Source: Pseudomonas sp. MUP55
GTDB lineage: Bacteria > Pseudomonadota > Gammaproteobacteria > Pseudomonadales > Pseudomonadaceae
Direction: 5' to 3'
Assembly: GCF_034043515.1 (NCBI RefSeq)
Contig: NZ_CP138214.1
Coordinates: 2,914,001 to 2,978,000 of the forward strand
Length of the DNA stretch: 64,000 nucleotides
Of this stretch, positions 1-18,661 are shown in pieces (the stretch's first letter is position 1; each line of letters starts with the position of its first letter). The notes beneath the pieces are model-generated. The model did no database searches. It had not been told where the DNA came from and saw only the letters and a list, made by a program, of their open reading frames with translations. Position numbers and translations under genes: made by a program.

Positions 1-2
1 AG

Positions 3-1832
3 CTTAATGTCTACGAGTGCAAGGCTTGGAAGAAATTCGATTCCACACGACTAACCGAGGCAATTGAGCGATTTCTTCAAGGTCGGTGGAAGAAAGATGC
101 TCGCTCATTTACGCTTATTTTGGCACAAGAGGACCTGGGCGAGCCTCTGGCAAGACGTTGGGACATCGAAAAAAAACGCTTAAAGCGGTCTGGAATTGAA
201 GGTGAACTTTGGACGGCTCACCATCTGACACAGAAAACCCAGTCTTATCCGGATCTGCTATCAAAGTTTTTTCCAGGGGCGCACGTCGAGACATTCGGCA
301 ATTTGTGGATGGAGCGTAGCGGGTTTCTCGATGCAGTCTCAAAAGCAGTCTTCGATCCCAGGGAGCGAGTCGCACAGAAGGCCAGAGAGTTCATTGAAAA
401 ATCGGGCAGGCTACTCGACAGCATTTCGGGTGGCAGTAACTTACCGGCTGGATCGACATTAGCCTCAGGCCATCAAATGACAGAGGCGCTGTCTTTTTCC
501 ATAGACGCGTTCCGGAAAGTCAGTCATAGCGGCCGGCATTGGTTTTATAGTGGGCCATGGTTCTCAGTTAGTGTGTTCCTGCCCGACCAAATATCTTCCA
601 AAGCATCCGCCGCTTTTGACTTCCACCAGGAAGATTTAAAGGGAGTTACGATTACGGTGAGCCACGATTGGCTCCTGAAGTGCTTTCTCTTTGCAGCAGG
701 GGCGCTCCTGTCGAGCAAAGCTCGCACATTCATCGTTGGAAAGATGCCAGGCGAGCCCAACCAGTACCTGATTGACCTACCTAATTGCCGGCTGACTCTC
801 CAAGAAGAGATCGTCCAAGAATTAGCCGATGTATCTGATCTGTTAACCATGGTTATGCGCGATGCGCTAAAGGCCATCGAAAGTAATTGGTCAGCTGTAG
901 ATTTTCCATTTTTTGACTGGGGTGGGTCGCATAGAGTTGTCATTGCTTCCATACGTGAAGATGTTTGGAGAGAGATCGGACGGTTCACCGAGGAGCACGA
1001 TTATACGAATGGCTCTACACCTTGGCACATATTCGACGGCCATGCGGAGTTTCTTAAACCGTGCCATCAGGCTGCTACCGCAGAATTCGACGCAGGCTAT
1101 CACTGTTTAATTAGCGCTTTAAAAGAGGAGGGGGCAACGTCCGGTAACAGGGTTAAGCTGCTATGGGCGCCAGATGATCTCACGTACAGATCCCCTTCGT
1201 CGAAAGGATGGTGGCCTTGTGAATTCACTTTGCGCTGGTTGAATGAAACATTGCTTCCCGAGATAAAGCGGCGGGTATTTAGGCGTGAATTTGGCTCGTG
1301 GTGGAAGCGATTTCTGCATTCCAAACCAGCAGAGGAGTTCTCGAGGCACCTAGATAATATCTTCGTCGCACGGGATGCTCGGGAGCCATCACTTCTAGAT
1401 CATGGTCGTTGGAACACTGATATTCTGCGTGGGGTAGAAGCCTTACAGTATTTCTTTACATCTGCTTCGATCGGGGCTGCAGGGCTCGAGATTTGCCAGC
1501 AAGATGTGGAAAACCTATACAGGGCCATCGCCATCGTCGCGGTTCGAAAGCGTGGCTTTCCAGGATATGTGGCTTCGTCCTTAAGCTTAGACGGTCGACC
1601 GGACGATCATGCTCAGCTCATTGGAATGATTCATCATCATATCGATTCTGGGCGTGTTGTTTCTAACTGCCATGTCGTCGATTATGCATTTCGCGCGATG
1701 CTCGAATTGCTCGATGAATCCGACTCCTGTGGTAGTACTTATGATCAAGAAACAATCATGAACTGGCTGCTCCCGTTCGCACGCTTGCGGGACGATGGCC
1801 TACTGGTAAGCCGTCACACTAAACGGACATGA
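3..1832 (+). CDS. 5'-truncated unknown protein with restriction-endonuclease-like N-terminal motif (island cargo)
   Basis: The reading frame is open to the first bases of the window, so the true start lies upstream and about 609 residues are visible. A TTG at 120 is the first candidate start codon inside the window, but the frame continues in front of it without a stop. The first visible residues read N-V-Y-E-C-K-A-W, an E-x-K pair followed by a basic stretch (G-R-W-K-K-D). This resembles the catalytic core of PD-(D/E)XK nuclease-like domains. The remaining ~560 residues show no Walker motif, signal peptide or membrane span, and I do not recognise them. It lies in the island left of ginD and looks clearly less GC-rich than the chromosomal genes to the right. 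A role in DNA processing or phage defence is inferred only from the motif and the island setting. Confidence 0.6.
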   Translation, partial: LNVYECKAWKKFDSTRLTEAIERFLQGRWKKDARSFTLILAQEDLGEPLARRWDIEKKRLKRSGIEGELWTAHHLTQKTQSYPDLLSKFFPGAHVETFGNLWMERSGFLDAVSKAVFDPRERVAQKAREFIEKSGRLLDSISGGSNLPAGSTLASGHQMTEALSFSIDAFRKVSHSGRHWFYSGPWFSVSVFLPDQISSKASAAFDFHQEDLKGVTITVSHDWLLKCFLFAAGALLSSKARTFIVGKMPGEPNQYLIDLPNCRLTLQEEIVQELADVSDLLTMVMRDALKAIESNWSAVDFPFFDWGGSHRVVIASIREDVWREIGRFTEEHDYTNGSTPWHIFDGHAEFLKPCHQAATAEFDAGYHCLISALKEEGATSGNRVKLLWAPDDLTYRSPSSKGWWPCEFTLRWLNETLLPEIKRRVFRREFGSWWKRFLHSKPAEEFSRHLDNIFVARDAREPSLLDHGRWNTDILRGVEALQYFFTSASIGAAGLEICQQDVENLYRAIAIVAVRKRGFPGYVASSLSLDGRPDDHAQLIGMIHHHIDSGRVVSNCHVVDYAFRAMLELLDESDSCGSTYDQETIMNWLLPFARLRDDGLLVSRHTKRT

Positions 1833-2000
1833 ACCCGCGCCGACCAAGAGGGAGCGTGAGCCCGTCAGTTGGCACGCGGGCTATTGGCACCAACTGCGGT
1901 AGATATGGTCATCAACGTTGGCAATCCACTCTACGGGACGGACACCGACGATCGATACGGTAGCGCTGTTGTTCAAAGAGGGCAGAAATCGTACTTTCGC

Positions 2001-2243
2001 CTATCGCGCGAACTCTGGTGGGGGAATGCGTTGACGGCGCGATCCAGCAGGTTTTTTCATCACCTCTTTCAAACGCTGAGCAGGTGCTTCTAACTCAGAC
2101 GGCGACGCAAGGCTAATAGCAAGCATTAACGCATCACGACGTTTCTGTTTACCTTCCAAAATTTCAGAGAGGCTACTTTCCGGCTGAACTGGGTGTTTCA
2201 TCGCTGCTGATCTCGATCTTCGGATCAAATTGGATACTAGCAC
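2001..2243 (-). CDS. small hypothetical protein (80 aa), doubtful
   Basis: The frame starts with GTG and has an AAGG five bases upstream; a second possible start is the ATG at 2201, giving 66 residues. The product is hydrophilic, rich in Lys, Arg, Glu and Ser, with a helix-prone middle (S-L-S-E-I-L-E-G-K-Q-K-R-R-D) and no recognisable domain. It follows the XRE gene on the same strand with a 64-base gap, so it could be co-transcribed. A competing plus-strand ORF of 74 codons at 1869-2093 overlaps it and has less protein-like composition. The call rests only on length, the ribosome binding site and context. Confidence 0.35.
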   Translation of the reverse strand: MLVSNLIRRSRSAAMKHPVQPESSLSEILEGKQKRRDALMLAISLASPSELEAPAQRLKEVMKKPAGSRRQRIPPPEFAR

Positions 2244-2307
2244 AAGCCTTACAACCCACAGCCTTCCGTTGATCCCCTTTGCTTATGAAACGTGATCCAT
2301 AAGATGT

Positions 2308-2589
2308 TCATTGCATCTCGCTTGGCAGTTCCGTTCGAATTCGGGAAAACAGTTCGTCGAGGGTGATCGGATTGTCCTGAAGCAGATAACAGCCTACGAG
2401 GATGGTCAGCGGATGAACGTCCATTACAGATGCTAGCTCGTCTACCTTCTCGATCGTAGGGCTCTTCAGACCGCGCTCTAGGGTGCTGAGATAGGTACGA
2501 CTACTGACGTCGGAGAAATCTTCCTGGGAAAGCTTCCTCTCCGATCTCAGCTTTTTCAGGGCCGTGCCAAAAGCCTGTTTCAGTTCCAT
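2308..2589 (-). CDS. XRE-family helix-turn-helix transcriptional regulator (93 aa)
   Basis: This small Cro/C1-type DNA-binding protein consists of little more than one HTH_3 domain. Residues ~6-60 carry the family pattern: L-K-K-L-R-S-E-R-K-L-S-Q-E-D-F, a recognition helix around S-S-R-T-Y-L-S-T-L-E-R-G, then S-P-T-I-E-K-V-D-E-L-A. The C-terminal ~30 residues are acidic and may form a short dimerisation tail. The start is supported by GAGG eight bases upstream. It is divergent from the gene at 2675, and the 85-base gap between them holds two CTATAG hexamers, so it probably represses its own promoter and its neighbour's. The target is an inference; the fold assignment is firm. Confidence 0.85.
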   Translation of the reverse strand: MELKQAFGTALKKLRSERKLSQEDFSDVSSRTYLSTLERGLKSPTIEKVDELASVMDVHPLTILVGCYLLQDNPITLDELFSRIRTELPSEMQ

Positions 2590-2674
2590 ATTGCCGACCT
2601 CGCAAAAGGAACGATGAAGCCTTCGCGAGCTCTATAGGGCTACAATCTATAGTGTTCACTTTTGGGATGGCGCT
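2590..2674. promoter_or_regulatory. divergent promoter/operator between XRE gene and unknown gene
   Basis: Two palindromic CTATAG hexamers lie at 2632-2637 and 2647-2652, 15 bases apart start to start, about one and a half helical turns. TACAAT at 2641-2646, between them, matches a sigma-70 -10 box at five of six positions for the plus-strand gene. No good -35 is visible. The layout suits an XRE dimer pair occluding a promoter, but no binding evidence exists. Confidence 0.4.
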
Positions 2675-3118
2675 ATGTTCATCACTCACAAACCAGCAGA
2701 GATTTTCCTCGGCGCATACCTGGGTGATGACTCTACCCAGTACTGGCAGTACGTTGAGCAGACCACCCATTGTCCCTGGTTTTACCTCAGAGTAGGTCGT
2801 CAACACGGCAGTGAAGTGTTGACTAGCATGGTTATGCTTCCCAGCATTTCAGCGCTTGAGCAGTTACTTAATGAACAAGGAGCAGACATCTGGCTGCTCG
2901 ATGTCCAGTTGGTTTCACCGGCTTATCTGAACCGAAGTGATGGGTGGAAGATGGAGAGGGTGTTAGAGGTGCGCGAGACGGTGGATGACATCAGTGAGGA
3001 GGCGGCCTATGTGTATAGCTTGGAGGGAGGGCATATCTACACTGAAGCCTTGGGGGCCTGCAGATCCGATTTGCAAAGTCCTCGCATCATTTTTTCGGCC
3101 ACACAGGCAACTCGGTGA
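2675..3118 (+). CDS. hypothetical protein (147 aa), island cargo
   Basis: The ATG start is preceded by GGGATGG about five bases upstream. The protein is soluble, acidic to neutral and rich in aromatic residues, without signal peptide or transmembrane segment; I recognise no family. Patches such as F-L-G-A-Y-L-G-D-D-S near the N-terminus and D-I-W-L-L-D-V-Q-L-V-S-P-A-Y in the middle look like a compact alpha/beta fold. It is transcribed away from the XRE gene, which probably controls it. The 110 bases that follow, up to the ginD stop, carry no obvious gene. It may be the effector or partner of the XRE protein, but no toxin motif is visible. Confidence 0.55.
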   Translation: MFITHKPAEIFLGAYLGDDSTQYWQYVEQTTHCPWFYLRVGRQHGSEVLTSMVMLPSISALEQLLNEQGADIWLLDVQLVSPAYLNRSDGWKMERVLEVRETVDDISEEAAYVYSLEGGHIYTEALGACRSDLQSPRIIFSATQATR

Positions 3119-3228
3119 GCGTGAGCCCAACATGCTTGAACGATTAACGGCATCTTTGATGCGCTAGCGGTTAGGAAATCTTGCCTGTCCGCGGCTTCAG
3201 TCAGCGGCGTTGGCAGCCTTTCTGCCAC

Positions 3229-3624
3229 TTACCGCCCTCGCAATGGAGTCAGTATGTTTTCGACATCCAATCCTTTCAGCAGACAGTTTTGCGCAATTGC
3301 CGACAGTGCTTCATAGAGCTGGTCTCGCTGCTTTATCAAGTCAGCATTCTCTGCCTGCAGATGAGCAATTCGTTCTTCGAGGCTTCTTCGGCGGCGGGCA
3401 CCGTCTGGATCTCTCCCACTCTCTTTGAGTTGTGCAATACGGGCGGACTCAATTCGCCTCCCACGATCACCTACTAGGGTAGCGCGGCTCGTCAGGCCCA
3501 ATCGACGCTGCACTTCGGGGCGTGAAATAGGCGCGAGCTCCAGTCCTAAGCTAATCATTTGAGCGAGGAGGGCGTCGATAGCCTCGTCCAAGGTGCCGCC
3601 CCTCAAGATTTGTCGTTGCGCCAT
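3229..3624 (-). CDS. ginD: GinD-like small coiled-coil protein of the GInt integration operon (131 aa)
   Basis: Last gene of the four-gene integration operon. In GInt islands the fourth gene encodes a small helical protein reported to be needed, with the three recombinases, for integration and excision. Here the N-terminal half contains a DNA-binding-like segment (P-E-V-Q-R-R-L-G-L-T-S-R-A-T-L), then a very basic run (G-A-R-R-R-R-S-L) leading into a predicted coiled coil (E-E-R-I-A-H-L-Q-A-E-N-A-D-L-I-K). GAGG six bases upstream supports the ATG start. It follows ginC by eight bases. The assignment rests on gene order, size and coiled-coil character, not on a recalled sequence alignment; it is also reminiscent of TnpC of Tn554-type elements. 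Confidence 0.7.
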   Translation of the reverse strand: MAQRQILRGGTLDEAIDALLAQMISLGLELAPISRPEVQRRLGLTSRATLVGDRGRRIESARIAQLKESGRDPDGARRRRSLEERIAHLQAENADLIKQRDQLYEALSAIAQNCLLKGLDVENILTPLRGR

Positions 3625-3632
3625 GGTTGCCT

Positions 3633-5747
3633 CTAATCATCCGAAACTGAACTGTGCCGTTTGTCCGAGTCCGCAACCGTCATTGGATGCCCGTTGGGAA
3701 ACACGCGTTGCACACCTACACTGGTATCGCGTGCGAGGACGGAATTTAAATTGTTGAGCTTGTCTTCCTGGTCCGCCAGCCATACGTCGCTGCCTGCCTC
3801 TCCAGCGCCGGCATCGCGCATGATGGTGATTGCCATCGTCAGATTCTCGGCTTGTTTCTCAAGATTGGCTCGCTCCGATGGAGTGCCCATCAGATGGAGA
3901 TGCGAGCAGCCATTCCAGCACTGAAGATGCTTAGGGCAGGGAGCTTGGGAGAAGTCGTGAATGCAGCCTCCAAAGGGTGTCACGTGCAGCGCCGTGGCGT
4001 GTACGGTGAGGAATGCTTCTGCAGTTGTCGTGCCTTTATCTGACAGCAACGCATGGTAACTGTCGGTCAACGCGCCCTGAATGCGTTTATCTCTTATGCC
4101 TGTATGCAGAAAATCGATGCGCTCGTGATGGCTATTGAACGCCAAGAACTCGTGATGCGCAGCAGTGTTTTCCTCAATGCTTGTGTGTTGGTAGTAGACA
4201 TTCTGGTCGAGGCGTTTTCGCCCTAAGGCCAATGCTTGCTGAACATCACTCATGCCGGTCAGATGATAAATAGTGTTTCGCCAGTGTCGGGGTTGGTGGC
4301 TTGTTAGCCTAATCGGAGTGCCATCGGATTCGGTTAGTAAACGACGCGAAAAAATGGACGCATATTTTTCATCGTCACCTAACGCGTGATTGATATCCAC
4401 GATGCTGACCCGACGCGGGACCGCACGAAACACATTTGCCTCACGTCCACCGAAACGAAATTGCCCGTCGAAAGCGATGGCAAGCGTTTCGCTGGTTCTA
4501 AGTACGATACGAGCCTCTCCCCCGACATTTTCTGTTAGTACCGCGTGCCCACGGAGCTTCGGGATGATCAGTCTTTCAATCTCCCCCGCGACGTAGCGTC
4601 GCTTTAACGACCTTCCTCGTTTCTCATCGGGCTCATTGTCAAACGGATGGACGCCGTTGCGTGTGAGGAAAAGGTATAGATTTCTGTTTGCACTCCTTGT
4701 TTCGCTAAAACCTAGCCAATCCAAGACCATTGCATCGGAGATCACCGACTGAGGAGGGTAGCTCCAAATACGTCCTGGGTGGAGTTCTTGCCAAGCGGCA
4801 ATCTCTCGCTGCTCTTCGGTTAGCGTCTTCAATCTCTCTACCGCTCGCCTGGCTAAAGGAACGTCGCTTTCAGCCAACCAATGAACACGGGATTGAAATT
4901 GCTTTTCCGCAAAGTACCTAATTCCGCATTCGACCAGAGGCTTACCATTGGCATCTACAACGACCTCTCCTGTGCTCCCTTTGATCGGCCTCTCGACCCA
5001 ACAATCATAGGGGATGACTGCTACTTCGTTACCTCGCTGTCCAGTCGCAATCAACAAATCGATCACGCGCAGCAAAATTTCTTCGCCGTCACTGAGCGGG
5101 TTGTTCGAACATAGGGCGTATGCTTCCATCGCCTCACGAGAAGGCAATCTATCATCAGATTTACGCTGTTTTACCGCACGATCAGGATCGTGCAATGAGA
5201 TGTACTCGTGGCGGCGTTTCTCTGGTTTTGCATCATGTACGAAGTGGATGGCGGTCTCGGTTAATTGCAGTTTATCGATCGTATCCGCTATTACCTGAAG
5301 ATGAGAGATCGCGTCGTAAAGGTTCTTGTAGCCACTCACGCGGAGAAATTCTACGACGCGGTCAAAATCACCCCGCGTCAACTGTGTAGGGTCGGATACG
5401 CGTCGTTCAAACAACGGATTGTAAAGCCGGCGTACGGCAATATTGTAGGCCGCGACCATCGAAAACTTCAGGCTTCGGGTGCGTTGAAGATATACGATTA
5501 ATGCCTTGCAAAAATCCTGGAAATCCAAGGGGAGGGCAGCTTTAGGAGGAACAGAATAGCCATTCTTTTGAAGCGACTGTCGGTGAGTTTCAAAGGTTAT
5601 GGTCTGTTGTTTTAAGCGCTGCGGCAGCCAATGCTCGACCGACCATAGCGATAGCTCCCAAGGGGTTGGAATCGGTAATGACTGAAAAATCACTTGTTCC
5701 TGTTTAATGAGACCTTCGAGATTCAGCCTTGCTCTAGACGGCGTCAT
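3633..5747 (-). CDS. ginC: GinC-like tyrosine recombinase (704 aa)
   Basis: Third recombinase of the GInt module, much longer than a normal integrase. The catalytic core is recognisable: box I Arg in I-A-T-G-Q-R-G-N-E-V, box II as S-H-Q-P-R-H-W-R-N-T (H-x-x-R), and the nucleophile Tyr in the V-Y-Y-Q-H-T segment. A Cys/His-rich stretch near residue 600 (G-G-C-I-H-D-F, A-P-C-P-K-H-L-Q-C-W-N-G-C) may bind zinc. The ATG at 5747 is preferred over the GTG at 5756, because GGAGG lies nine bases before the ATG but directly abuts the GTG. It overlaps the end of ginB by 14 bases, implying translational coupling. It is intact, unlike ginB. Confidence 0.8.
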   Translation of the reverse strand: MTPSRARLNLEGLIKQEQVIFQSLPIPTPWELSLWSVEHWLPQRLKQQTITFETHRQSLQKNGYSVPPKAALPLDFQDFCKALIVYLQRTRSLKFSMVAAYNIAVRRLYNPLFERRVSDPTQLTRGDFDRVVEFLRVSGYKNLYDAISHLQVIADTIDKLQLTETAIHFVHDAKPEKRRHEYISLHDPDRAVKQRKSDDRLPSREAMEAYALCSNNPLSDGEEILLRVIDLLIATGQRGNEVAVIPYDCWVERPIKGSTGEVVVDANGKPLVECGIRYFAEKQFQSRVHWLAESDVPLARRAVERLKTLTEEQREIAAWQELHPGRIWSYPPQSVISDAMVLDWLGFSETRSANRNLYLFLTRNGVHPFDNEPDEKRGRSLKRRYVAGEIERLIIPKLRGHAVLTENVGGEARIVLRTSETLAIAFDGQFRFGGREANVFRAVPRRVSIVDINHALGDDEKYASIFSRRLLTESDGTPIRLTSHQPRHWRNTIYHLTGMSDVQQALALGRKRLDQNVYYQHTSIEENTAAHHEFLAFNSHHERIDFLHTGIRDKRIQGALTDSYHALLSDKGTTTAEAFLTVHATALHVTPFGGCIHDFSQAPCPKHLQCWNGCSHLHLMGTPSERANLEKQAENLTMAITIMRDAGAGEAGSDVWLADQEDKLNNLNSVLARDTSVGVQRVFPNGHPMTVADSDKRHSSVSDD

Positions 5748-7254
5748 CTGCGGCACCCTCCGTGCGCTGCCGGCAGCGCTCGATGGTAGCGCTTACTGCC
5801 AGGATGGTTGTTTGATGCTGTGCGAGAGGCCGGTTGTGAATGAGGTCTCCGGCTTGTTCTGCCATGTCAATGAACCGCTGAGCTTCTCGTTGCAGCGCCT
5901 CTTTCACTTGCTCGTGCCGGCCGTCAGCAAAGGGGTGAAATTTTTTGCAGGTGTAGCAGGCATAGACGGGATTGTAGGGGCAGTGCGTATGAACTGGGAG
6001 GGCGCATGCACCGATGTCTCCGATGTACTGTGTGTCGATCACGCCACGGATAGCTCTTTCGGCAGCGGTATCGCGGCGTTGCACGACTTCCCCGGTCAAG
6101 ATACTGCGCATAATGCGTTGATAGGCGGGACTCTTGCCGAGTGCTTTTTCTTTGATCCGGGCAATGTTGGGAGTTGCCGTGACGTAAGCGCGCGCCGCTA
6201 CTGTGCTGTTATGGCCAAGCAGTTCGGCAATCATGTCTGCCGGAGTTCCCTGGTCAGCCAAACCTTGCCCGAGGTGATGGCGCAACAAGATAGTTACCTG
6301 GTTAGGCTTGTCTATCCCTGCTTCACGCAGTTCATGTTTAAGGCCTATACCGATTTCGTTAACTGACAGACGTTTTCCATTAGGACTGACAAATAATGGT
6401 CCCCAGTCGCTGCCAAATTGGCGTTGAATTTCCGAGATGTGGCGTGAGATTTTTTCACCCAGTCGGGAGGTGACTTTGCGGGGCCGTCGCTCAGGCCTGC
6501 GCTGGCCGACCTTTTTGGCCATGGGTAGCCAGAGGGTGTAGTACCTCTCATGATCAGCGCTTTCAATGAACTCAAAATCCGCGATGTCAAGCGAGTGAAA
6601 TTGAATCGAGCGTGGTGCGAGTTCGAAACCTAAGTGAAGTACTATATTGAACTGGGCCTCCTCCCAAGAGGTAGGTGAAACCTCTCGTTCAATCCGTTTG
6701 AGCAATCGAACTTCCTCATCGAGGTCTAAACCAGACTGCGAGAGAAAAATTCGCGCATACGGGTCAACTCGATCTGATTTCACATCCTTGATTTTTAAGT
6801 AGGTGATTGGATCGAAGCCATTGATTCATCTATCCATTGCCCATCGGTAAAGCCTTCGAAATCCTATAAGTACTGCCCTCGTTTTTTTGAGTTCCTCAAG
6901 AGCAGTGACCAGCTGATGGGTGTCCCAAGGAAGTCCGGTCGCGAGATTTGTACTAGATAAAAAGCGTAGGGTATCTGCGAACATTACCGCGGTTCGAGGG
7001 GCATATTTCTCAAGTGCATAGGCCATAAAACCTTTGCCTATTTCTATTAGCTCCGAGTTCAATTGGAGTGCAGCCCAATCGACTTTCATCGCGAGTCCAC
7101 CGTCGTACCACGTCCACACCTTCAGCCGGGTATCGACGTATCGTGGCTGATCATTGGTGCGTGTTCGAATAGCGACCTGAGCCGGCCCTTGGAACAAATA
7201 GCCCGAAAAAGAGGAGGAGGGTGAAGCATGATCTTTGCCAACTGATTTAGTCAC
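5734..7254 (-). pseudogene. ginB: GinB-like tyrosine recombinase split by an in-frame TGA
   Basis: One continuous frame runs from a GTG at 7254, with a very strong AAGGAGG six bases upstream, to the stop at 5734-5736. It is broken by a TGA at 6826-6828, after ...R-R-L-Y-R-W-A-M-D-R. Reading resumes in the same frame with I-N-G-F-D-P-I-T-Y-L and then the whole catalytic part. The 142-residue upstream piece is the arm/core-binding portion. The downstream piece holds the box I Arg (F-E-L-A-P-R-S-I), L-R-H-H-L-G-Q-G-L, the L-L-G-H motif and the A-R-A-Y-V tyrosine, plus a Cys-rich tail (H-C-P-Y-N-P-V-Y-A-C-Y-T-C). A GTG at 6783 could restart translation, but only as a truncated enzyme. A nonsense mutation (for example CGA to TGA) is the simplest reading; sequencing error or readthrough are alternatives. 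Confidence 0.75.
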
Positions 7255-7265
7255 AACTAACCTCC

Positions 7266-8519
7266 TTAACTGTCAAATCGGCTCCAGGCTGCCGAGGCAC
7301 GCTGGGCATTGTGGAGGTTGGCCGACTCGGCTAGATAACGACTTGCATAACGGCGTGGCATCGTCGAAGTCTCAGACCAACCGCAGACTCGTCGGAGTTC
7401 GTCCGTGGCCCGTTCGAGGTCATACCCACGCGTCTCGATCAAGAAAGACAAAAACCGGTCGGCAAAGGTGTGGCGGAAGTCATGCGCGGAAAGTGTAGGC
7501 AACAATCCCGGACGAGCCAGTTCAATGGTCAGAAACAGCCGATCAAGAACGTTAGACAACGCGCGGATGGACAGCGGACGGCCTCGATCCGAGATGAACA
7601 AATAGCGGTACATCAATTTCATCGGCTTGCCGTGACGCAGAGGGCGCCGTTCGCTCTGGATATATCGCTCGTAGACCTCATACAACTGAGTGGAGATGCC
7701 TACGGTCCGCCCATGTGTTTTCAGTGCAGGCTCTTCAGCGCGTGGGTCGCCTGGATCATGTTCGCGGTCATTGATGCTGACATAGGCATGCTGAGAACCC
7801 TGGTTAATATCCGTGGTGTAGAGCTTCAGAAGCTCTCCGCGACGGATACCAGTCTCCAGTAGCAATTCAATCATTAGCCAATTGCGCAACTGCAATCGTT
7901 CCGGGAACGGATTCTCCGCGGCACCCGGGCGAATCAGTGTACGAACGATCTGAAGCTGCATATCTGTCAGGCTGCGGTAACGAGTGCGGTCGGGACGAAG
8001 ATTGATGATATGGCTCTCAAAGCGCCGTTCAATGACGTCGGCGACATCGGCAAATACAACTTCGATGTTAGTCAGGGTGGTTGAGTTCTGACGGGCGCGC
8101 GGAATGTAACGAGTCACGCACCAGGACAGGTACTGCTTCAGCAACCGCAGGTACTGGTCACGGGTACGCGGATCGATCTGAGGAAAAGGTGCCGTTGCAG
8201 CTTTGCCGATTCGGGCGACCAGGTTGTCGGCTTGACGGCCGCTTTGGAGCCAGATGGCGTAACCATCCAGTAAAGCCAGAATCGACTCGAAGTGGCAGGC
8301 CAAGATGGCGTCATCAATATTGAGGTCACGGCTTTTGGCATAGATGTAGAAAGCCTGGATCGCGCGCAGATGTGCCGCAGTAGTGTTGTAAGCGCGGTAC
8401 CTTAGCTTGAGTTGAACGTAGATGAACGGGACAAGTATGGGCAAAGGCTCCGCATCTCCAGTCTGCACGAGCAGCGGTACACGCTGACCTGAAGAGAAAC
8501 GGCATTGAATCAGCTTCAT
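7266..8519 (-). CDS. ginA: GinA-like tyrosine recombinase (417 aa)
   Basis: First gene of the integration operon and closest to the island end. The catalytic residues are all visible: Arg in L-E-T-G-I-R-R-G-E-L-L, H-x-x-R as A-H-D-F-R-H-T-F-A-D, then V-C-G-W-S-E-T-S in place of the usual L-G-H, and the nucleophile Tyr in M-P-R-R-Y-A-S-R-Y. The N-terminal ~180 residues form the core-binding SAM-like domain. I place the start at the ATG at 8519 because AGGTGG lies six bases upstream; the ATG at 8534, five codons earlier, has no ribosome binding site. ginB starts 11 bases after it. In known GInts ginA, B, C and D are all required for movement. Confidence 0.85.
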   Translation of the reverse strand: MKLIQCRFSSGQRVPLLVQTGDAEPLPILVPFIYVQLKLRYRAYNTTAAHLRAIQAFYIYAKSRDLNIDDAILACHFESILALLDGYAIWLQSGRQADNLVARIGKAATAPFPQIDPRTRDQYLRLLKQYLSWCVTRYIPRARQNSTTLTNIEVVFADVADVIERRFESHIINLRPDRTRYRSLTDMQLQIVRTLIRPGAAENPFPERLQLRNWLMIELLLETGIRRGELLKLYTTDINQGSQHAYVSINDREHDPGDPRAEEPALKTHGRTVGISTQLYEVYERYIQSERRPLRHGKPMKLMYRYLFISDRGRPLSIRALSNVLDRLFLTIELARPGLLPTLSAHDFRHTFADRFLSFLIETRGYDLERATDELRRVCGWSETSTMPRRYASRYLAESANLHNAQRASAAWSRFDS

Positions 8520-8601
8520 CGGCAGCCACCTCATTCAATGACTCGCCATGAACACGAAGGACATGGCCCGTTGAGAGATTGGACGTCAGAAACGGTTTTG
8601 T

Positions 8602-8774
8602 CGAATCAGTGGCTTAGGTAGCTCATGAACATCTTTGACATGACCTGTCGTTTAACATAATATACATTATGCGTACTACCGTATCTGGACCCGGAGGGCC
8701 GTGGTTGTCAGGCCCCAGTAAAGATGCGCCTTTGCCTACTTAATTGTGCGCCTCTTACGAATCAATGGCTTAAG
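8602..8774. repeat. imperfect 17-bp direct repeats flanking the dif-like site
   Basis: CGAATCA-G-TGGCTTA-GG at 8602-8618 and CGAATCA-A-TGGCTTA-AG at 8758-8774 match at 15 of 17 positions in the same orientation, 156 bp apart, one on each side of the dif-like sequence. They could be recombinase arm-binding sites or attachment-site remnants of successive insertions. The repeats are seen directly; their function is inferred. Confidence 0.55.
8650..8677 (-). other. dif: dif-like XerC/XerD chromosome dimer resolution site
   Basis: On the minus strand the site reads as a XerC arm AGTACGCATAA, a central TGTATA and a XerD arm TTATGTTAAAC. Against the recalled gamma-proteobacterial consensus (XerC arm RNTKCGCATAA, centre TGTATA, XerD arm TTATGTTAAAT) this is 26 of 28 matches; the centre and inner arm positions are perfect. 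The XerD arm faces ginA, which starts 131 bp away. KOPS-like octamers in the window converge on this point, supporting function as the chromosomal dif rather than only an element-borne copy. Confidence 0.85.
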
Positions 8775-8894
8775 CATGCACTTGTTAGTGTCAGTCTCAA
8801 GATCGACAGCGCTTTTCCTAACCTGAACCAACGAATACCCAGTTAAAGATGCGCTTCTAGCCGGACGTGGTATCCATCTATAGATGCGCTTTTT
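8714..8894. repeat. cluster of short direct repeats AAAGATGCGC
   Basis: CCCAGTAAAGATGCGC at 8714-8729 recurs as CCCAGTTAAAGATGCGC at 8838-8854. Related copies are TTGTGCGCC near 8744 and ATAGATGCGCTTTT at 8880-8893. All are on the same strand within 180 bp, on the chromosomal side of the dif-like site. They may be protein-binding iterons or old attachment-site remnants. Confidence 0.45.
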
Positions 8895-9103
8895 TTGGGG
8901 TTCCCAAGCCTCCAATACGCTTTACGCACAAATTGAACGTCAACCAGTCATGCATTTTTGGCTCTGTTGCCCGAGGTGCGGTCTATAGGGAAATACGCCT
9001 TCGGGATCACACGAGTGCTGATTCGCAATTTACGCTACCGCGTGATGCTCTTAGCCATTCATGGTTTGCGTACAGTCTCTAGCTCACTACTAATGCCCTG
9101 TAA

Positions 9104-9538: not shown

Positions 9539-11152
9539 TTACATTTTAAACCGATCCACCGACTGCGACAGCTTCCCCGCCAGGCTCGACAATTCATCCG
9601 TCGTCGACGCCGTACCCGCAATCACCCGGCTATTGCTTTCCGACATCCCCGCAATCATCTCCACCTGATGGGCGATCTCGTTGCTGGCCAGGCTTTGTTC
9701 ACTGATGGTGCGGGAAATGTCATTCACCAGTTCGGTGGTACTGAGCGTGGCCTGGAGGATTTCGCGAATGGCGCGTTCCACGTCGGCGGTGACGGCCATG
9801 CCCTTATCCACTTGAGCAACGCCCTCCTCCATGCTGGTAACCGCTTCGCGGGTGTTCTGCTGGATGCGCCCGACCATGCTGGCGATTTCCTGGGTCGAGG
9901 CGCTGGTGCGTCCGGCTAGGCTGCGCACTTCATCGGCCACCACGGCAAAGCCACGGCCCTGCTCACCGGCGCGGGCGGCTTCGATCGCGGCGTTCAGCGC
10001 CAGCAAGTTGGTTTGATCGGCGATACCCTTGATCACCTGGATGATGCTGTAGATCGCCTCGGACTCTTTGTCCAGCGTGCGAATCACCTGGGCCGATTGC
10101 TGCGCCGAGCGTGCGATGCCGTCCATGTCGCTGACCACTTGATGAATGATCCGGCCGCCGTCTTTGGCCAGAGTTTGCGCCTGGTTGGCCATGTCCAGCG
10201 CCTGTCCGGCATGGCGGGTAATTTCCTCGATGCTGGCGGTCATTTCACTCGCGGCGGCGGCCATGGTGCTGGCGGCCGCGCTTTGTTGCTGGCTGCTGCC
10301 TGCAACTTCATGGCAGCCGTGGCTCAAGCGTTCGCTTACGCCATTGACGCCATGGGCATTGCTGCGCACCACTTCGATCATGCTGCGCAAGTCACGTTGC
10401 ATGGTGGCCAGGCTGCGAATCAGCGTGCTGGCTTCGTCCTGGTTCTTAGGCTCGACAATCGGCTGGCTCAAGTTGCCATGGGCGATGCTGTCGGCAATGC
10501 GGCTGGCGGTCTGCAACGGCCCCATGATGCTCAGGATTACCCAGCGCCCTTGTGCCAGCAACAGCAGAAGGCTGGCGACCAACACCACGGCGAGGACCCA
10601 GTTGGCGCTGCTGATGGCTTGTCGGGTGCCGGTGCTGGTGCCCAGGGTATGGCTTTCGATCAGTTCACTCAGCGCGGCCATTTGGTCTTCCAGCTGGCTG
10701 AATGCGGTGTTGAACGTTTCGATCTCTACACGCGCGGCCTCGGGATTGGTGAGGGCCAATGCAACGATGCGCTCGCCGGCGCTGATATAGGTGTCCAGGC
10801 TGGGTTTGATTTTTTCAAGGCTGGCCTTGGTCGTGTCGTCCAACGGCTGCTTGAAATTATCCGCCAGCATCTGACGGAAATGCTCGGCATGCTCCTTGAG
10901 CGACGCGTTGACCTCGGCAGGCGTATTCGTGCTTTTGCCCAGGCCTACCAACATGGCGGACAACACATCGGCACGCAGCGCGTCGTGCATCATGTCCGCT
11001 TCCATATGGTTGCGCAGTACCGTCATGCTGACTTCATTGTCCTGCACCGCAGCCGCCATGCGGGTGTTTCCCAGGTAGCCTGCCAGGCTCATGATCAAGG
11101 CGGTCGCCAGCCCGGTCGCAATCAACAGCATCAAGCGTAGTTTGATCGTCAT
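9539..11152 (-). CDS. methyl-accepting chemotaxis protein (537 aa)
   Basis: Inner-membrane chemoreceptor. The first transmembrane helix is at residues ~6-26 ([15 protein letters not shown]). A periplasmic four-helix-bundle-like region of ~160 residues follows, then a second helix ([15 protein letters not shown]), a HAMP domain and the long signalling hairpin. Its tip is the invariant [21 protein letters not shown] and [12 protein letters not shown]. There is no C-terminal NWETF-type CheR tether. The ATG at 11152 with GGGGAT upstream is preferred; the frame stays open 26 codons further but without a binding site. The ligand is unknown. It is the first intact chromosomal gene right of the island and is divergent from the MFS gene. 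Confidence 0.93.
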
Positions 11153-11306
11153 CTGGTATCCCCATGCCTGGATCGCCGGTTGGGAAACCAACCGTTCGAG
11201 CGTCATTAGTACCGTTATCGGCACCGCCACCCGTTAGTGAAGCCCAAGTTTGCGGATCTGCATGAATCCCTTAAGCTGGGCGTCTTTTGTCTGCCCGGAC
11301 CTGCCA

Positions 11307-12503
11307 ATGCCTCGAAGCATCGCCCACCTCGCCCTGCTGTTGGGCTTGATCACCGCCGTCGGCCCGTTTGCCATCGACAGCTACCTGCCGGCACTGCCAA
11401 CCCTGGGCGCCAGCCTTCACGCATCACCGGCCGCCGTGCAGATGAGCCTGACGGTGTTCTTCATGATCATTGGGGTGTGCCAGCTGTTCTATGGCCCCAT
11501 CAGCGACGTATTTGGCCGCAAAATGCCGATTTATGCGGGGTTGGTGATCTTTGTCATCGGCAGTATCGGCTGTGCAATGGCGCCGACCATCGAGGTGTTG
11601 ATTGGCTTTCGCGCGGTACAGGCATTTGGCGCATGCGCGGGCATGGTGATTCCGCGGGCGATAGTCCGCGACCTGTACACCGGCCATGAAGCGGCGCGCC
11701 TGATGGCCCTGTTGATGTTGGTGATGAGTGTTTCGCCGATCCTTGCACCCTTGGCTGGCAGCGTGGTGATTTCAGTCTGGAGTTGGCGCGAGGTATTTGC
11801 GGTATTGGCGGTGGTGGCGCTGTTGTGCCTGGTGATGACGATTGTGCAATTGCCGGAAACCCACCCGGCAGAGCGTCGGTTGGGCAAGACCCTGAACAAC
11901 GCATTCGGCAGCTACGGCGCCCTCCTGCGCGACCCGGTATTTACCGGCTTGTCAGTGGTCTGCGGCTTTGGCCTTGCCACGTTCTTCGTGTTTATCGGCA
12001 GCGCGCCCTTCGTGTACATCGAATACTTCGGCCTGACACCGACGCAGTTCAGCCTGTGCTTTGCAGTGAATGCGGCGTCGTTTTTCGCCATGAGCCAACT
12101 GACGGCACGCCTGAGCGCCCGTTTTGGCCTGGCGCCGCTGATTCGCTGGTCGGTAATGGCCGTGGCGGCCGTAATGGCGTTACTGGCGGCGACGACGCTG
12201 TGGGGCAGCAACCTGGCCTTGATGATGGCCCTGCTGTTTATCGGCTTCGGTTTTCTTGGCCTGTTGCTGCCGGCCGCCGGGGTACTGTCGATGGAAGATC
12301 ACGGCGCCGTGGCAGGTTCGGCGTCTGCGCTGCTTGGCGCGATACAGATGGTCACTGCCGCGGTGTCCATGACGCTGGTTGGTCTGTTCGCCGACCACAC
12401 GCCCGCCCCCATGCTGGTAGGCATCGCGCTGTGCGCCGCCGCCGCCATGCTCACGGTAGTCTGGACCCTGCGCCGATTGCCGTCGCACCTGGCGAGCGCC
12501 TAG
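11307..12503 (+). CDS. Bcr/CflA-family MFS multidrug efflux transporter (398 aa)
   Basis: Twelve-helix major facilitator of the drug:proton antiporter Bcr/CflA type. Visible family marks are the N-terminal I-T-A-V-G-P-F-A-I-D-S-Y-L-P-A-L-P, a loop 2-3 motif A of the G-P-I-S-D-V-F-G-R-K form, and the helix 5 region M-S-V-S-P-I-L-A-P-L-A-G. The start is uncertain: the ATG at 11307 gives the usual family N-terminus, but an ATG at 11262 has a better GGA spacing. It is convergent with the integrase gene, with only three bases between the stop codons. Substrates cannot be told from the sequence. Confidence 0.88.
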   Translation: MPRSIAHLALLLGLITAVGPFAIDSYLPALPTLGASLHASPAAVQMSLTVFFMIIGVCQLFYGPISDVFGRKMPIYAGLVIFVIGSIGCAMAPTIEVLIGFRAVQAFGACAGMVIPRAIVRDLYTGHEAARLMALLMLVMSVSPILAPLAGSVVISVWSWREVFAVLAVVALLCLVMTIVQLPETHPAERRLGKTLNNAFGSYGALLRDPVFTGLSVVCGFGLATFFVFIGSAPFVYIEYFGLTPTQFSLCFAVNAASFFAMSQLTARLSARFGLAPLIRWSVMAVAAVMALLAATTLWGSNLALMMALLFIGFGFLGLLLPAAGVLSMEDHGAVAGSASALLGAIQMVTAAVSMTLVGLFADHTPAPMLVGIALCAAAAMLTVVWTLRRLPSHLASA

Positions 12504-12506
12504 CGC

Positions 12507-13421
12507 TTACAAATCAAAGCGGTCCACCGCCCGCCGCCGCTCGTTGTCATCGCGCACGTCATAGCTGGCGGTGGTCTGGATATTGGTGTGGTGGGCCAGC
12601 TTCTGCGCAATCGACAGGTCATGCTCCTCGATCACCCGGGTGATGAAGGAGCGCCGGAAGTCATGGGGCATGATCTTTACGCCCACCTGGTCGCCGCGCT
12701 GGCGAGCGATGTAGTAAATCGCGTGCTTGGTGATGCGCTCACGGGTGATATGGCTACCGCGCCGGATGCGGTTGAACAAAAAACCATCGTCCTGCTCGCC
12801 TTCCTTAAGCTGCCCGCGACGAAACTCCAGCCAGGCCTGCAGCTTGGCGAATGCCCATTCCGGTGCGTACTTGATCAGTTCCTTGTTGCCCTTGCCGATC
12901 ACGCGCAAGCTGCGCTGTTCGAAATCAACCTGCGCCAGGTCCAGGTTGACCGACTCCGACTTGCGCATGCCCGAGCCATAAAGGATGCCGATCACCGCGG
13001 CATCGCGCAGGCCCTGCGGGCGTGGGTCGGCGGCGCAGACTTCCATCATCTCGCGGATCAGCGTACGGCGCAGGTTGCGCCCCTGCCCCAGGCGTGTACC
13101 GGACGCGGCCTTGACCGAACGCATCTTCAGCAGATGCTCCTGGCTGATCAAGCTCATGCGCCACGCTTCATTCATCACGCCGCGCACGGCATTCACATAC
13201 AGCGACGAGGTGTTCGGCGCATAGCCGTCCTCGCGCAACGCGGCGACCAGGGCGATCACCTGTTCGGGTTGCAGCAGGTGCCAGTCGATGTCTTCGAGGT
13301 TGACGTCGTCAAAGCCCAGACGGTCGGCGGCGTCCTGCAGCACATAACGCATGGTCAGTTGGCTTGAGGGCGCAAGGCGGGTGAGATAGAGGGTCAGGGG
13401 GTTGCGGATGGACTCAGTCAA
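12507..13421 (-). CDS. lone Xer-like tyrosine recombinase/integrase (304 aa)
   Basis: Complete catalytic domain: Arg in Y-G-S-G-M-R-K-S-E, the beta-hairpin Lys in G-K-G-N-K-E, H-x-x-R as P-H-D-F-R-R-S, the second His in L-A-H-H-T-N, and Tyr in T-A-S-Y-D-V. The N-terminal ~95 residues form a SAM-like core-binding domain, and the length is typical of XerC/XerD. No phage, transposon or att-like direct repeats surround it and its base composition matches the neighbours, so it looks like a resident chromosomal recombinase. A perfect 10-bp inverted repeat lies 20 bases upstream and may be its binding or regulatory site. It is too divergent from XerC/XerD, as I recall them, to be called either; the natural substrate is unknown. 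Confidence 0.85.
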   Translation of the reverse strand: MTESIRNPLTLYLTRLAPSSQLTMRYVLQDAADRLGFDDVNLEDIDWHLLQPEQVIALVAALREDGYAPNTSSLYVNAVRGVMNEAWRMSLISQEHLLKMRSVKAASGTRLGQGRNLRRTLIREMMEVCAADPRPQGLRDAAVIGILYGSGMRKSESVNLDLAQVDFEQRSLRVIGKGNKELIKYAPEWAFAKLQAWLEFRRGQLKEGEQDDGFLFNRIRRGSHITRERITKHAIYYIARQRGDQVGVKIMPHDFRRSFITRVIEEHDLSIAQKLAHHTNIQTTASYDVRDDNERRRAVDRFDL

Positions 13422-13440
13422 GGTAGATCAGCCTTTGGAT

Positions 13441-13480
13441 TAAATATCGCAAGCAATCCATTGATTAGTCGCGATATTTA
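13441..13480. repeat. perfect 10-bp inverted repeat upstream of the recombinase gene
   Basis: TAAATATCGC at 13441-13450 and GCGATATTTA at 13471-13480 are exact reverse complements separated by 20 bases, in the AT-rich leader of the recombinase gene. The centre-to-centre spacing of 30 bp, about three helical turns, would suit a dimer bound to one DNA face, such as autoregulation or a recombination site. Confidence 0.6.
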
Positions 13481-13529
13481 TTGAATTGGCGAACGCCGAG
13501 TCTACCAAAGTCTCGGCGCTGCCATCAAA

Positions 13530-14342
13530 TCACGGCGCCACGTCGTCCTCTTCAGTGGGCTGCTGGGGCTGGCTCTGGGATTGGCTCCAATCGGCGTCCT
13601 GTTTGCGCATCAGTGCAAACCAGTGCTGGCGCATGAAGGTCAGGTAACCGTCGGGTGCCTTGGCGAAATCGTCCTCGTCGCGGTAGCAACCTGGCAGCGG
13701 CAGCTCCGTGCCCTGCTCCTTGTACTGGCTGACCAACGTCTGCTGCGCGGCCACGCTGCAATCGGTGGGCAGCGGCATGCCGCGCAGGGCGCCGGCGTCC
13801 TCGTCCCACCAGGCGGCGCCATAGCGGTCGACGCCGCGCAGGCGATACTTCTCGGACTTGCCAACGTGCATGATCAGTTTGAATTCATTTGGGCTGACGT
13901 CGCTGGTACAGGTGCGCGAGTAGCCCACGGTCGTCTGGGTATTGCCATCGCCCAGCAGGTCGGTGACCTTGGTGGCAGCCGCGTCGAAGTGCAGTCCGGC
14001 GTCGAATTCGCACTGGCGCACATCGTCGTAGAGCATCCACACGCGCTTGGGATGCTCGCCCGCCAGCAGATACTGGGCCGCGTAGACAAAAGCCGACTGA
14101 GTGCCATCGTCGTCGCGCTCGCTGACCTGTTCGGCCAGCACCAGCAGGTTCTTGCCTTGGCGGTCGTCCCAGGTATAGGCGGCGATCTGCTTGCCGCGCA
14201 CTTCAATGCCCTCCGGCACCTGGTCAACGCTGGCCAGGGCCACGCCCTCGTCGGCTCGCGCCGCCGTGGCACAGGCAACGCACACCAACAATCCCATCAA
14301 CACCGGCCGCAACTGGCCGCGTAAAAGCTGCACGCTATTCAT
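13530..14342 (-). CDS. secreted hypothetical protein, possibly M949_RS01915 family (270 aa)
   Basis: A Sec signal peptide is clear: a basic N-terminus, a hydrophobic core V-L-M-G-L-L-V-C-V-A-C-A and a likely cut after A-A-R-A. The mature protein is acidic, with paired Cys residues (R-Q-C-E-F, S-R-T-C-T-S, T-D-C-S-V, P-G-C-Y-R) fitting disulfides in the periplasm. The stretch T-S-D-V-S-P-N-E-F-K-L-I-M resembles, from memory, the family named in genome annotation as M949_RS01915 surface polysaccharide biosynthesis proteins; that name implies little about mechanism. The C-terminus is low-complexity (Q-S-Q-S-Q-P-Q-Q-P). It is divergent from the arn operon. Confidence 0.7.
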   Translation of the reverse strand: MNSVQLLRGQLRPVLMGLLVCVACATAARADEGVALASVDQVPEGIEVRGKQIAAYTWDDRQGKNLLVLAEQVSERDDDGTQSAFVYAAQYLLAGEHPKRVWMLYDDVRQCEFDAGLHFDAAATKVTDLLGDGNTQTTVGYSRTCTSDVSPNEFKLIMHVGKSEKYRLRGVDRYGAAWWDEDAGALRGMPLPTDCSVAAQQTLVSQYKEQGTELPLPGCYRDEDDFAKAPDGYLTFMRQHWFALMRKQDADWSQSQSQPQQPTEEDDVAP

Positions 14343-14754
14343 CCGAGTACCCTGGCAAGAGATGGCTTACTTTACCGGCACTTGAAGGGCAATGCAGAGA
14401 AGATTGTTGAATACCTGCAGGGGCGCCTGCGAGCGCCTCGATCAAGTGAACCAAACAGCCGCCGGCCCGTTCCTATCCGCCTGAAAACGCACAGGGTTTA
14501 ACGCCTTGTCCACATTGCTGAACCCTAGCTGTCTACCTGTCAAATAAACGAGTTTTTCATCCGCCTTTCATATTCGTTGAACAATTTTGCGCTTAACCTT
14601 GTATGCAACACTTCAGAGCAATCCTTGGTTTATCGACTAACCTGTTGATTACTCATTATCTTTAGCGCCGCGTTGTACTGTGCGGGCTATGGTTTTGCCC
14701 AACAATCGCTGCTGTTTTCGCGCTCCAAGTTGCTTTAGCCGAGGTCATGAATCT
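14343..14754. promoter_or_regulatory. arn operon upstream region (no arnB)
   Basis: 412 bases between the divergent secreted-protein gene and arnC contain no ORF resembling the aminotransferase ArnB, which usually opens this operon. An imperfect palindrome GGTTTATCGACTAACC is at 14627-14642 and could be an activator site. I could not find a convincing PhoP direct repeat (two GTTTA units five bases apart) or PmrA box. AT content rises at 14520-14660, as expected for a promoter. Confidence 0.45.
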
Positions 14755-15789
14755 TTGAAACCCTACCCTATTCATTGCGTATCGATCGTTATCCCGGTCT
14801 ACAACGAACAAGAGAGCCTGCCTGAATTGCTGCGCCGTACTACGGCTGCCTGCAAGCAGCTGGCCTACGACTACGAAATCATCCTGGTGGACGACGGCAG
14901 CCGCGACAATTCGGCGCAATTGCTCGAAGACGCCGCCGCCGAAGACGGCAGCAACGTGGTGGCGGTGATCCTCAACCGTAACTATGGCCAACACGCGGCG
15001 ATCATGGCGGGTTTCGAACAGTGCCGCGGCGAAGTGGTGATTACCCTCGACGCCGACCTGCAAAACCCGCCCGAAGAAATCCCGCGCCTGGTGGAGCAAG
15101 CCGCCCTGGGCTACGACGTGGTCGCCACGGTGCGTAACAACCGCCAGGATTCAGCGTTCCGCCGCTGGCCCTCGCGCCTGATCAACCTGGCCGTGCAGCG
15201 CTCCACCGGCGTGGCCATGACCGATTACGGCTGCATGCTGCGCGCCTACCGCCGCACCATCGTCGACGCGATGCTGGCCTGCCGCGAGCGCAGTACCTTC
15301 ATTCCGATCCTGGCCAACGGCTTCGCGCGCCACACCACGGAAATCCTGGTGCACCACGCCGAGCGTGAGCACGGCGAATCCAAATACAGCGCCATGCGCC
15401 TGATCAGCCTGATGTTCGACCTGCTCACCTGCATGACCACCACACCGTTGCGCCTGCTGTCCATCGTCGGCTTCAGCCTGGCGGCGCTGGGTGTGCTGTT
15501 CGCGTTTGCGTTGATCGTCATGCGCCTGGCCTTCGGTGCCAACTGGGCGGGCGACGGCCTGTTCGTGCTGTTTGCGGTGCTGTTCGTGTTTACCGGTGGC
15601 CAGTTCATCGGCATGGGCCTGCTCGGTGAGTACCTGGGCCGCATGTACAGCGATGTGCGCGCCCGCCCGCGTTTCTTCATTGAAAAAGTGCTGCGCAACC
15701 AACCGGCAGCACCGGCTCCCGTGGTCGTCGTTGATGGCCTGGTGTCTTCCCATACTTCTACTTCTTCTTCCGATCAGGTTCAGTCATGA
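14755..15789 (+). CDS. arnC: ArnC undecaprenyl-phosphate 4-deoxy-4-formamido-L-arabinose transferase (344 aa)
   Basis: Transfers 4-formamido-arabinose from UDP to undecaprenyl phosphate at the cytoplasmic face of the inner membrane. The N-terminal ~230 residues are a GT2 domain with [25 protein letters not shown], and the metal-binding [13 protein letters not shown]. Two C-terminal membrane helices follow ([12 protein letters not shown] and [11 protein letters not shown]). The TTG at 14755 is chosen because GAGG lies ten bases upstream and the family N-terminus begins there; an in-frame ATG at 14680 lacks support. It overlaps arnA by four bases, the first of a chain of overlaps through ugd. 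Confidence 0.95.
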
Positions 15790-17777: not shown

Positions 17778-18661
17778 TGAAGGCAGGTCTTCGCATCGAC
17801 GTCGACACCTACCGTGGCACCCGTGAAGGTGTGCCGCGGCTGCTCGAGTCCCTGGACGAAGCCGGGATCAAAGCGACGTTTTTCTTCAGCGTCGGGCCGG
17901 ACAACATGGGGCGCCACTTGTGGCGCCTGATCCGCCCGCAGTTTCTGTGGAAAATGCTGCGTTCCAACGCCGCCGGCCTGTATGGCTGGGACATCCTGCT
18001 GGCCGGCACCGCCTGGCCGGGCAAGCCGATTGGCCGCGACCTGGGGCATTTGATGCGCCAGGCCAAGGCTGCCGGGCATGAAGTCGGCCTGCACGCGTGG
18101 GATCACCATGGCTGGCAGGCCAATACCGGGCGGTGGAGCGATACACAGCTGGTCGAGCAGATCCGACGCGGCGTGGACACCTTGAGCGACATTCTGGGTG
18201 AGCGTATCGACTGTTCAGCGGCCGCCGGTTGGCGCGCCGATGAACGCGTGGTGCAAGCCAAGCAAGCCTTCGACTTTCGCTACAACAGCGATTGCCGGGG
18301 CACCAGCCTGTTCCGGCCGACCCTGGCCGATGGCAGCGCGGGCACCCCACAAATTCCGGTAGACCTGCCCACCTTCGACGAAGTCGTCGGGCCGGTAGTG
18401 GCTGCCAACGATTTCAACACCTTCATCCTTGACCGGTTCAACGCGTCGAAGCTGAACGTCTACACGATCCACGCAGAAGTAGAAGGGATTTTGATGGCTC
18501 AGGATTTTCGCCAGTTACTCGCCCAGGCCGGGCAGCGCGGCATCGACTTCACCCCCCTGGGCGAGCTGCTGCCCGCCGATGTCACCACCCTGCCCCAGCA
18601 ACAGCTGGTGCGCGGCGCCTTGAGCGGCCGCGAGGGTTGGCTCGGAGTACAGCAGGCATGA
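17777..18661 (+). CDS. arnD: ArnD 4-deoxy-4-formamido-L-arabinose-phosphoundecaprenol deformylase (294 aa)
   Basis: Removes the formyl group from the lipid-linked sugar so that the amino sugar can be flipped and used. It is a NodB/polysaccharide-deacetylase fold: the metal-binding Asp lies in L-R-I-D-V-D-T-Y, and the His pair is represented in [12 protein letters not shown]. Length is normal for ArnD. The ATG shares its first base with the last base of the arnA stop codon, and the 3' end overlaps arnT through ATGA. Confidence 0.95.

Follow-up and report, generated by a model that had tools for sequence, protein, structure and literature searches.

GInt-type islands of Pseudomonas very probably use the chromosomal dif site as their point of attachment

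The stretch of DNA analysed here (the window, 64,000 nucleotides of contig NZ_CP138214.1 from Pseudomonas sp. MUP55) contains one end of a genomic island of the GInt type, whose ginABCD operon starts beside dif, the site of the XerC/XerD recombinases. The window lies in a closed chromosome of 5,948,019 bp (G000), whose genus is confirmed as Pseudomonas by its named relatives. We consider it very probable that the island belongs to a GInt-type lineage for which dif is the chromosomal attachment site, with a crossover made by the Gin recombinases at the outer end of the XerD arm and with dif rebuilt on insertion. In the proposed mechanism, the Gin recombinases would join the circular island to the XerD arm at its outer end, within the core GTTAAAY and with an overlap of about 6-7 bp, and the XerD arm plus neighbouring DNA would act as the bacterial attachment site, attB. 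Since the island end would supply the last base of the XerD arm, dif would be rebuilt and kept beside ginA, and the host DNA that formerly touched dif would be displaced to the island's far end. Later islands would enter the same rebuilt dif and push older ones away, producing a queue behind dif. The features that carry this reading are listed below.

8650..8677, minus strand: dif, 28 bp, XerD arm facing the island and XerC arm facing the host flank
8650..8656, minus strand: attL core GTTAAAC, outer end of the XerD arm
8623..8649, minus strand: left end of the element, whose plus-strand reading TCATGAACATCTTTGACATGACC resembles the right end TCATGAACAAATAACATCGCCC
1..8649, no strand: part of the GInt inside the window, which runs on leftwards to about G000:2893656
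7266..8534, minus strand: ginA, tyrosine recombinase of 422 aa (Pfam/NCBIfam match)
5734..7254, minus strand: ginB, tyrosine recombinase, interrupted (Pfam/NCBIfam match in its C-terminal part)
3633..5756, minus strand: ginC, divergent recombinase-like protein of 707 aa, with homologues at the same operon place elsewhere
3229..3624, minus strand: ginD, 131 aa, final gene of the operon, with homologues 20-36% identical in other operons

A reading of the window from its letters alone (the sequence-only reading) had proposed a dif-like XerC/XerD site at 8650-8677, and the comparison bears this out. The 28-bp sequence, AGTACGCATAATGTATATTATGTTAAAC, agrees with the dif consensus at 26 of 28 positions, with perfect centre and inner arms, and with the PAO1 dif printed in PMC2731167 at 24 of 28. 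Allowing up to 3 mismatches, the consensus was matched once in the window and in none of 100 dinucleotide shuffles, while the whole genome gave a single match to the 22-bp core at the same tolerance, at 49% of the contig. To the left of the site, GC skew was positive in 10 of 10 samples of 20 kb, and FtsK-orienting polar sequences (KOPS) numbered 36 forward to 1 reverse; to the right, skew was negative in 8 of 8 such samples, with 5 KOPS forward and 23 reverse. Because it is the sole match, and because skew and KOPS polarity switch there, we identify 8650-8677 by sequence as the chromosomal dif, just as a single site at the skew switch had been anticipated. From dif it is 115 bp to the first ATG of the ginA open reading frame (ORF; 8534) and 130 bp to the second (8519); the 131 bp given earlier is the coordinate difference to the latter.

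The genes ginA, ginB, ginC and ginD run leftward from dif in that order, with the operon at one island end and the cargo beyond ginD. Gene order together with the Pfam and NCBIfam recombinase matches upholds the earlier assignment to a GInt-type operon. GinA contains the published recombinase residue pattern R..HxxRH..Y, its catalytic residues R231, H351, R354, H355 and Y396 are invariant in the GinA alignment, and its profile matches the XerD and XerA structures. GinB keeps R, K, R, H and Y. The ginC profile matched solved recombinase structures weakly (best E 0.022). According to PMC5385486, GinC is missing the first recombinase arginine; unlike that published statement, GinC of the operons compared here has an arginine aligned with box I (R241). 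A distant four-gene operon of the same order is located elsewhere in G005 (417, 542, 732 and 137 aa; matches 25-36% identical), and the A-B-C-D order also recurs in G479, G548 and G521. The island was earlier credited with three recombinases of its own. All three genes are present, but an in-frame stop at 6826-6828 divides ginB into pieces of 142 and 349 aa; relatives have an intact ginB (open over at least 512 codons at 15 of 45 named loci). Because of this split, the window copy is probably not autonomous and would be fixed unless helped in trans.

We located the island ends by comparison with occupied and empty relatives. In G000 the island is 29.0 kb long, 8.65 kb of it inside the window, and its attR core, GTTAGAT, at about G000:2893654-2893660 (outside the window), is an imperfect direct repeat of the attL core. 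Compared by eye, the two ends form an imperfect inverted repeat. The G029 island, 26.6 kb long, begins at dif and ends with '...TCATGAACAAATAACATCGCCCACTTGTTAAA' followed by TGATGTGTATGGGC, and the match to a thymidylate-kinase-like host gene, here called gene X, comes within about 75 bp after this right end. Its att sites, TGTTAAACGACAGGT and TGTTAAATGATGTGT, are imperfect direct repeats, with similar pairs in G196, G232 and G113 and a weaker one in G000. The last 100 bp of six right ends are 51-72% AT, against about 39% in host flank. At empty sites (G017, G268, G111, G026 and G192), 25-45 bp separate dif from the end of the match to gene X. G196 has the same flank as G111, G017 and G268, gene X in the other three being 88-89% identical to that of G017, and it carries 18.1 kb between dif and the gene X flank, with a left end at dif. 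Its right end reads 'CATCGCCCACTTGTTCAA' joined to 'TGATGTATTACGCTATACG', where G111 has dif followed by '..TTATGTTAAA' joined to 'TTATGTATTACGCTATGCG'. The same pattern was seen for G232 against G005 and locus L150, whose dif continues with GATGTGTCAGAGCGGAACTTC. In both G196 and G232 the far end thus consists of the right end, GTTMAAT and then the flank that relatives lacking the end have directly after dif; the same right end and core occur in G029 and G113. From the G196/G111 and G232/G005/L150 junctions, the crossover is placed inside GTTAAAY at the outer end of the XerD arm. The junction is therefore within about 10 bp of dif, well inside the roughly 200 bp that the sequence-only reading had predicted.

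The final base of dif is consistent with this placement. Among loci with available sequence, identical ones counted once, it was C in 69% of 62 sites with a left end and T in 90% of 30 others; since C goes with the left end and T with its absence, the island supplies this base. The XerC arm, on the other hand, follows the host: CGTGTAATG occurs both with an island end (G002, G029) and without one (G016). As a separate observation, dif sites lacking a GInt end (e.g. L032, L040, L175-L179) have a weak conserved extension, AAATNATGTRTT, after the XerD arm.

The arrangement recurs across the genus. A ginA match at E <= 1e-30 was found in 18 of 249 Pseudomonas genomes, 15 of them with at least 74% identity and 3 at 28-33%. 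In all 15 genomes of the closer group the left end of the island directly follows dif, and in 13 of them 116-124 bp lie between the end of the dif core and the ginA match; this distance is 1.4 kb in G189, where additional DNA is found near the start of ginA, and 9 kb in G228. The three distant matches (G005, G122 and G248) have no dif beside ginA in the stretch available, which for G122 extends only 140 bp upstream. The left-end pattern itself follows the XerD arm of dif in 47 of the 249 genomes, at one site each, while a reversed-pattern control gave 0; where sequence or exact core position was available, these sites carry a full dif with at most 2 core mismatches. There was no ginA match at 1e-30 in 32 of the 47. 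Ten of these were searched for gin genes with tblastn at 1e-4 (whole intervals in G108, G113, G257, G196, G232, G126, G153 and G248; part of the interval in G067 and G104), and ginA pieces were found only in G153. The few genes checked in G196, G232, G126, G153 and G248 were metabolic, transport, signalling or stress genes where a family matched. In G126, genes of 652, 402 and 701 aa beside dif had the sizes of a recombinase trio, but their matches are to a protein of siderophore synthesis, an exporter and a TonB receptor, and this candidate was rejected. Among named genomes, a sample that overlaps with the 249 (e.g. L134 is G002), dif lies within 125 bp of the ginA match in the same orientation at 39 of 45 Pseudomonas-type loci, one of which is labelled Pantoea; four distant Ligilactobacillus hits without dif were excluded. 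A second contig of G218 (L229, C2; 135 kb) has its own dif-like site with 1 mismatch, followed by a GInt left end, and is perhaps a plasmid. G218 gave no ginA match at 1e-30, and its chromosomal dif is on a separate contig.

One tandem shows how successive islands could be arranged. In P. putida ASAD, ginA is present twice, at a distance of 35.5 kb, with the far copy starting directly after a right end '..CTTAGCCCATTAGTTAAATCAGGTGTTATGTC', which is what insertion between dif and a resident island would leave. This one clear tandem suggests that islands stack behind dif, by what would be sequential entry. Second or displaced ginA remnants also occur about 4.8 and 9 kb behind dif (G175:C13:213786-214022 and G228:C1:2975582-2976663); they are perhaps older islands in such a queue.

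Movement of the islands between hosts was apparent from the cargo. The cargo of G000 matches that of G029 at 99.7% identity over 19.4 kb and at 99.3% over 5.5 kb, while the XerC-like protein of the host flank is 86% identical between the two; this pairing points to a recent transfer among distinct hosts. In the left part of the G029 operon identity drops to about 90%, and this part meets the rest at a deletion from ginB into ginC, so that the G029 island looks like a fusion of two islands.

Several observations weigh against the dif-attachment reading. The attR core of the window copy is imperfect, and 9.8 kb of other DNA (G000:2883870-2893650) separates it from gene X; this DNA may itself be an older element. 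Six of the 45 named ginA loci (L120, L122, L126, L129, L144 and L149) lack dif beside ginA; L126 is the second copy of the tandem, and L149 (G016, short fragments) is about 26 kb from its dif. The hits at L149 and L150 are fragments and were not confirmed at 1e-10. Many long intervals between dif and gene X carry no recognisable GInt end, so other DNA enters behind dif as well. The distance from dif to gene X fails to separate the genomes, with medians of 34.8 kb with the signature and 33.3 kb without, in a comparison of 54 genomes that left out G010 (a 57% paralogue 1.7 Mb away), genomes with dif and gene X on separate contigs and those whose dif was known only from the left-end pattern search, and that grouped G218 with the signature set though its signature is on another contig. 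Finally, excision and integration are predicted here from sequence comparison, and homology to GInts was judged through the distant G005 operon.

Integrative mobile elements exploiting Xer (IMEX), such as CTXphi, TLCphi, the gonococcal genetic island and LME-1, use the host Xer recombinases and a dif mimic. If the island were an IMEX, inserted by host XerCD with the gin genes as passengers, its position at dif would be explained, and the match of the GinA profile to XerD and XerA structures would also fit. An exchange in the 6-bp centre should then leave two dif-like sites, one at each end. Yet no second dif with up to 3 mismatches was found in G000, G002, G029, G021, G030 or G016, the far ends retain the GTTAAAY core but neither centre nor XerC arm, and the junction is not within the dif centre. 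Integration by XerCD is unlikely because of the missing second dif and the position of the junction, and we regard the passenger explanation as improbable. Less likely still is that the gin operon is immobile and belongs to the host as an accessory system that resolves dimers or maintains the terminus. The recurrent place, the fixed orientation and KOPS that behind dif point mostly towards it would agree with such a role; close ginA genes (at least 74%) in just 15 of 249 genomes, many broken copies, defined ends, empty sites and near-identical cargo in different hosts speak strongly against it. The sequence-only reading had allowed for the island either targeting dif or having captured a copy of it. 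Empty sites, far ends at the host gene and the host-following XerC arm favour targeting. That the island carries its own dif, 8650-8677 not being the host's, is very hard to sustain: dif does abut the island end in occupied genomes, but the same six genomes hold no second dif at up to 3 mismatches, XerC-arm variants track the host and occur without an island end (G016), and skew and KOPS switch at this very site. An old Pseudomonas extension of dif, 40 bp long and joined by ginA through terminus hot-spot coincidence, is just as implausible, for although signature-less sites share the weaker extension and long intervals without signature are common, the 40-bp end is confined to 47 of 249 genomes, looks like the right end in inverted orientation and is absent from the empty sites described above.

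The preferred reading, a GInt lineage attached at dif by its own recombinases, raises the question of other gin lineages. The close-family search at class level returned 1 of 369 genomes at 1e-30, the window's own, while a profile built from four diverse GinA sequences picked up, at 1e-25, three further genomes out of 293 in the class. A full ginABCD operon in G479 (412, 506, 686 and 132 aa) starts 130-155 bp, depending on the start codon, from the sole dif, which has 3 mismatches and its XerD arm facing ginA; the GTCAA arm is shared by a relative, G638. G548 also has a full operon (430, 528, 794 and 147 aa), which starts 27-100 bp from the sole dif (1 mismatch), and here the XerC arm, not the XerD arm, faces ginA. 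For both genomes "sole" refers to sites with up to 3 mismatches, as more diverged ones would escape the search. The G521 operon is located away from dif. G479 and G548 represent two other bacterial families, and the pairwise identity of GinA among the three lineages is about 27-30%. Searching for short direct repeats brought up no convincing far end for the G479 or the G548 island, and what these two genomes indicate is adjacency of operon and dif. It is conceivable, though we would put it somewhat below an even chance, that dif is a general landing site for GInts: at least three divergent gin lineages would use Xer arms as attB (the XerD side in Pseudomonas and G479, the XerC side in G548), insertions would rebuild dif, islands would queue with KOPS towards dif, and Gin may share the Xer arm with XerD and FtsK or compete with them for it, coupling island movement to chromosome segregation.

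KOPS converge at dif, and FtsK activates XerD (PMC5357621). Behind dif, KOPS in six regions (G000, G002, G189, G209, G228 and G211; G029 was omitted as near-identical to G000) numbered 31 towards dif and 4 away, with 7 to 1 in the G000 GInt alone; of these, G211 lacks a GInt signature, and the regions taken from G189, G209 and G228 may extend beyond the island. A control motif, GGGANGGG, was also skewed behind dif (14:5), and part of the KOPS bias would thus be plain strand composition. The fixed orientation of the islands would keep them compatible with FtsK guidance, at least partly via ordinary strand composition.

The remaining features of the window are cargo and host flank:

120..1832, plus strand: cargo ORF, 570 aa, no Pfam, NCBIfam or PADLOC match
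2308..2589, minus strand: cargo, helix-turn-helix regulator (family match)
2675..3118, plus strand: cargo ORF, 147 aa, no Pfam or PADLOC match
9539..11230, minus strand: chemotaxis receptor (methyl-accepting chemotaxis protein, MCP; family match), host flank on the XerC side
12507..13421, minus strand: XerC-like tyrosine recombinase, 304 aa, below the XerC cut-off, host flank

Further cargo left of the window (L053:1706-6763, 10616-12928 and 13420-17814) includes an Avs4-like protein (502 bits), a PDC-S06-like AAA protein (224 bits) and a 1464-aa protein with weak nuclease-type matches at its N-terminus, and judged by these matches it looks defensive. The XerC-like recombinase was matched once each in 169 of 249 genus genomes at 1e-80; in several near relatives its distance from dif, on the XerC side, is 4-30 kb, and in G029 it is about 95 kb. 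Around dif itself, a promoter-like TTGACA-17-TAATAT (8635-8663) spans the junction and points outwards over dif, one being found where 0.5 were expected by chance. On the XerC side, the motif AGATGCGCYT was seen by eye in three copies at 8715-8895, and a piece at 8758-8775 is, also by eye, identical at 15 of 18 positions to 8602-8619 of the GInt left region.

The new element of this work is dif as the target, the GInt being a known kind of element. PMC5385486 reports that all four gin genes are needed (in another lineage), proposes 6-nt staggered cuts, describes att sites as imperfect direct repeats of 10-17 nt and the island as having a short AT-rich 3' end, and names as targets an ABC transporter gene start, an ssb gene and a ribonucleotide reductase gene. 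The need for all four genes and the staggered cuts would presumably hold for the dif lineage too. The islands described here resemble those GInts in ginABCD order, an operon at one end, cargo, a short right end, imperfect direct-repeat att sites with short overlap and high insertion specificity, and differ in having dif as target. PMC10121019 describes defence-carrying GInts and E. coli hot spots as GInt targets, and 'dif' does not occur in its main text. We found no report of GInts at dif among the literature matches listed, subscription papers and supplements being outside the search. The sequence-only reading had called this a third way of using dif. The part about an element with its own recombinases stands, but IS1202-family elements already land near dif without Xer action (PMC10132070); they too lie beside dif in fixed orientation, though they are insertion sequences, unlike the island at the XerD arm, which is 29 kb long and has tyrosine recombinases. 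Strand-biased circularizing elements (SEs, PMC10214605) and Tn554 share with the island several recombinases, a small helper and a 6-bp footprint. The SE order is intA-tfp-intB-srap with the divergent protein second, whereas here two Pfam-recognised recombinases come first and the divergent 707-aa protein third, and SE and GInt proteins form separate clusters (PMC10214605).

Chromosomes usually have one dif, a site that is conserved widely and linked to cell division. Like an IMEX the window island sits at dif, but it has its own recombinases and none of the six genomes searched holds a second dif-like site with up to 3 mismatches. An island that uses one Xer arm with its own recombinases and rebuilds a dif that presumably still works would differ from IMEX in leaving a protected address open to the next island. 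GInts docked at dif would help to explain why cargo is concentrated on the XerD side of the Pseudomonas dif, link defence and metabolic cargo to the terminus, and may provide a model for two recombinase systems sharing one 11-bp arm.
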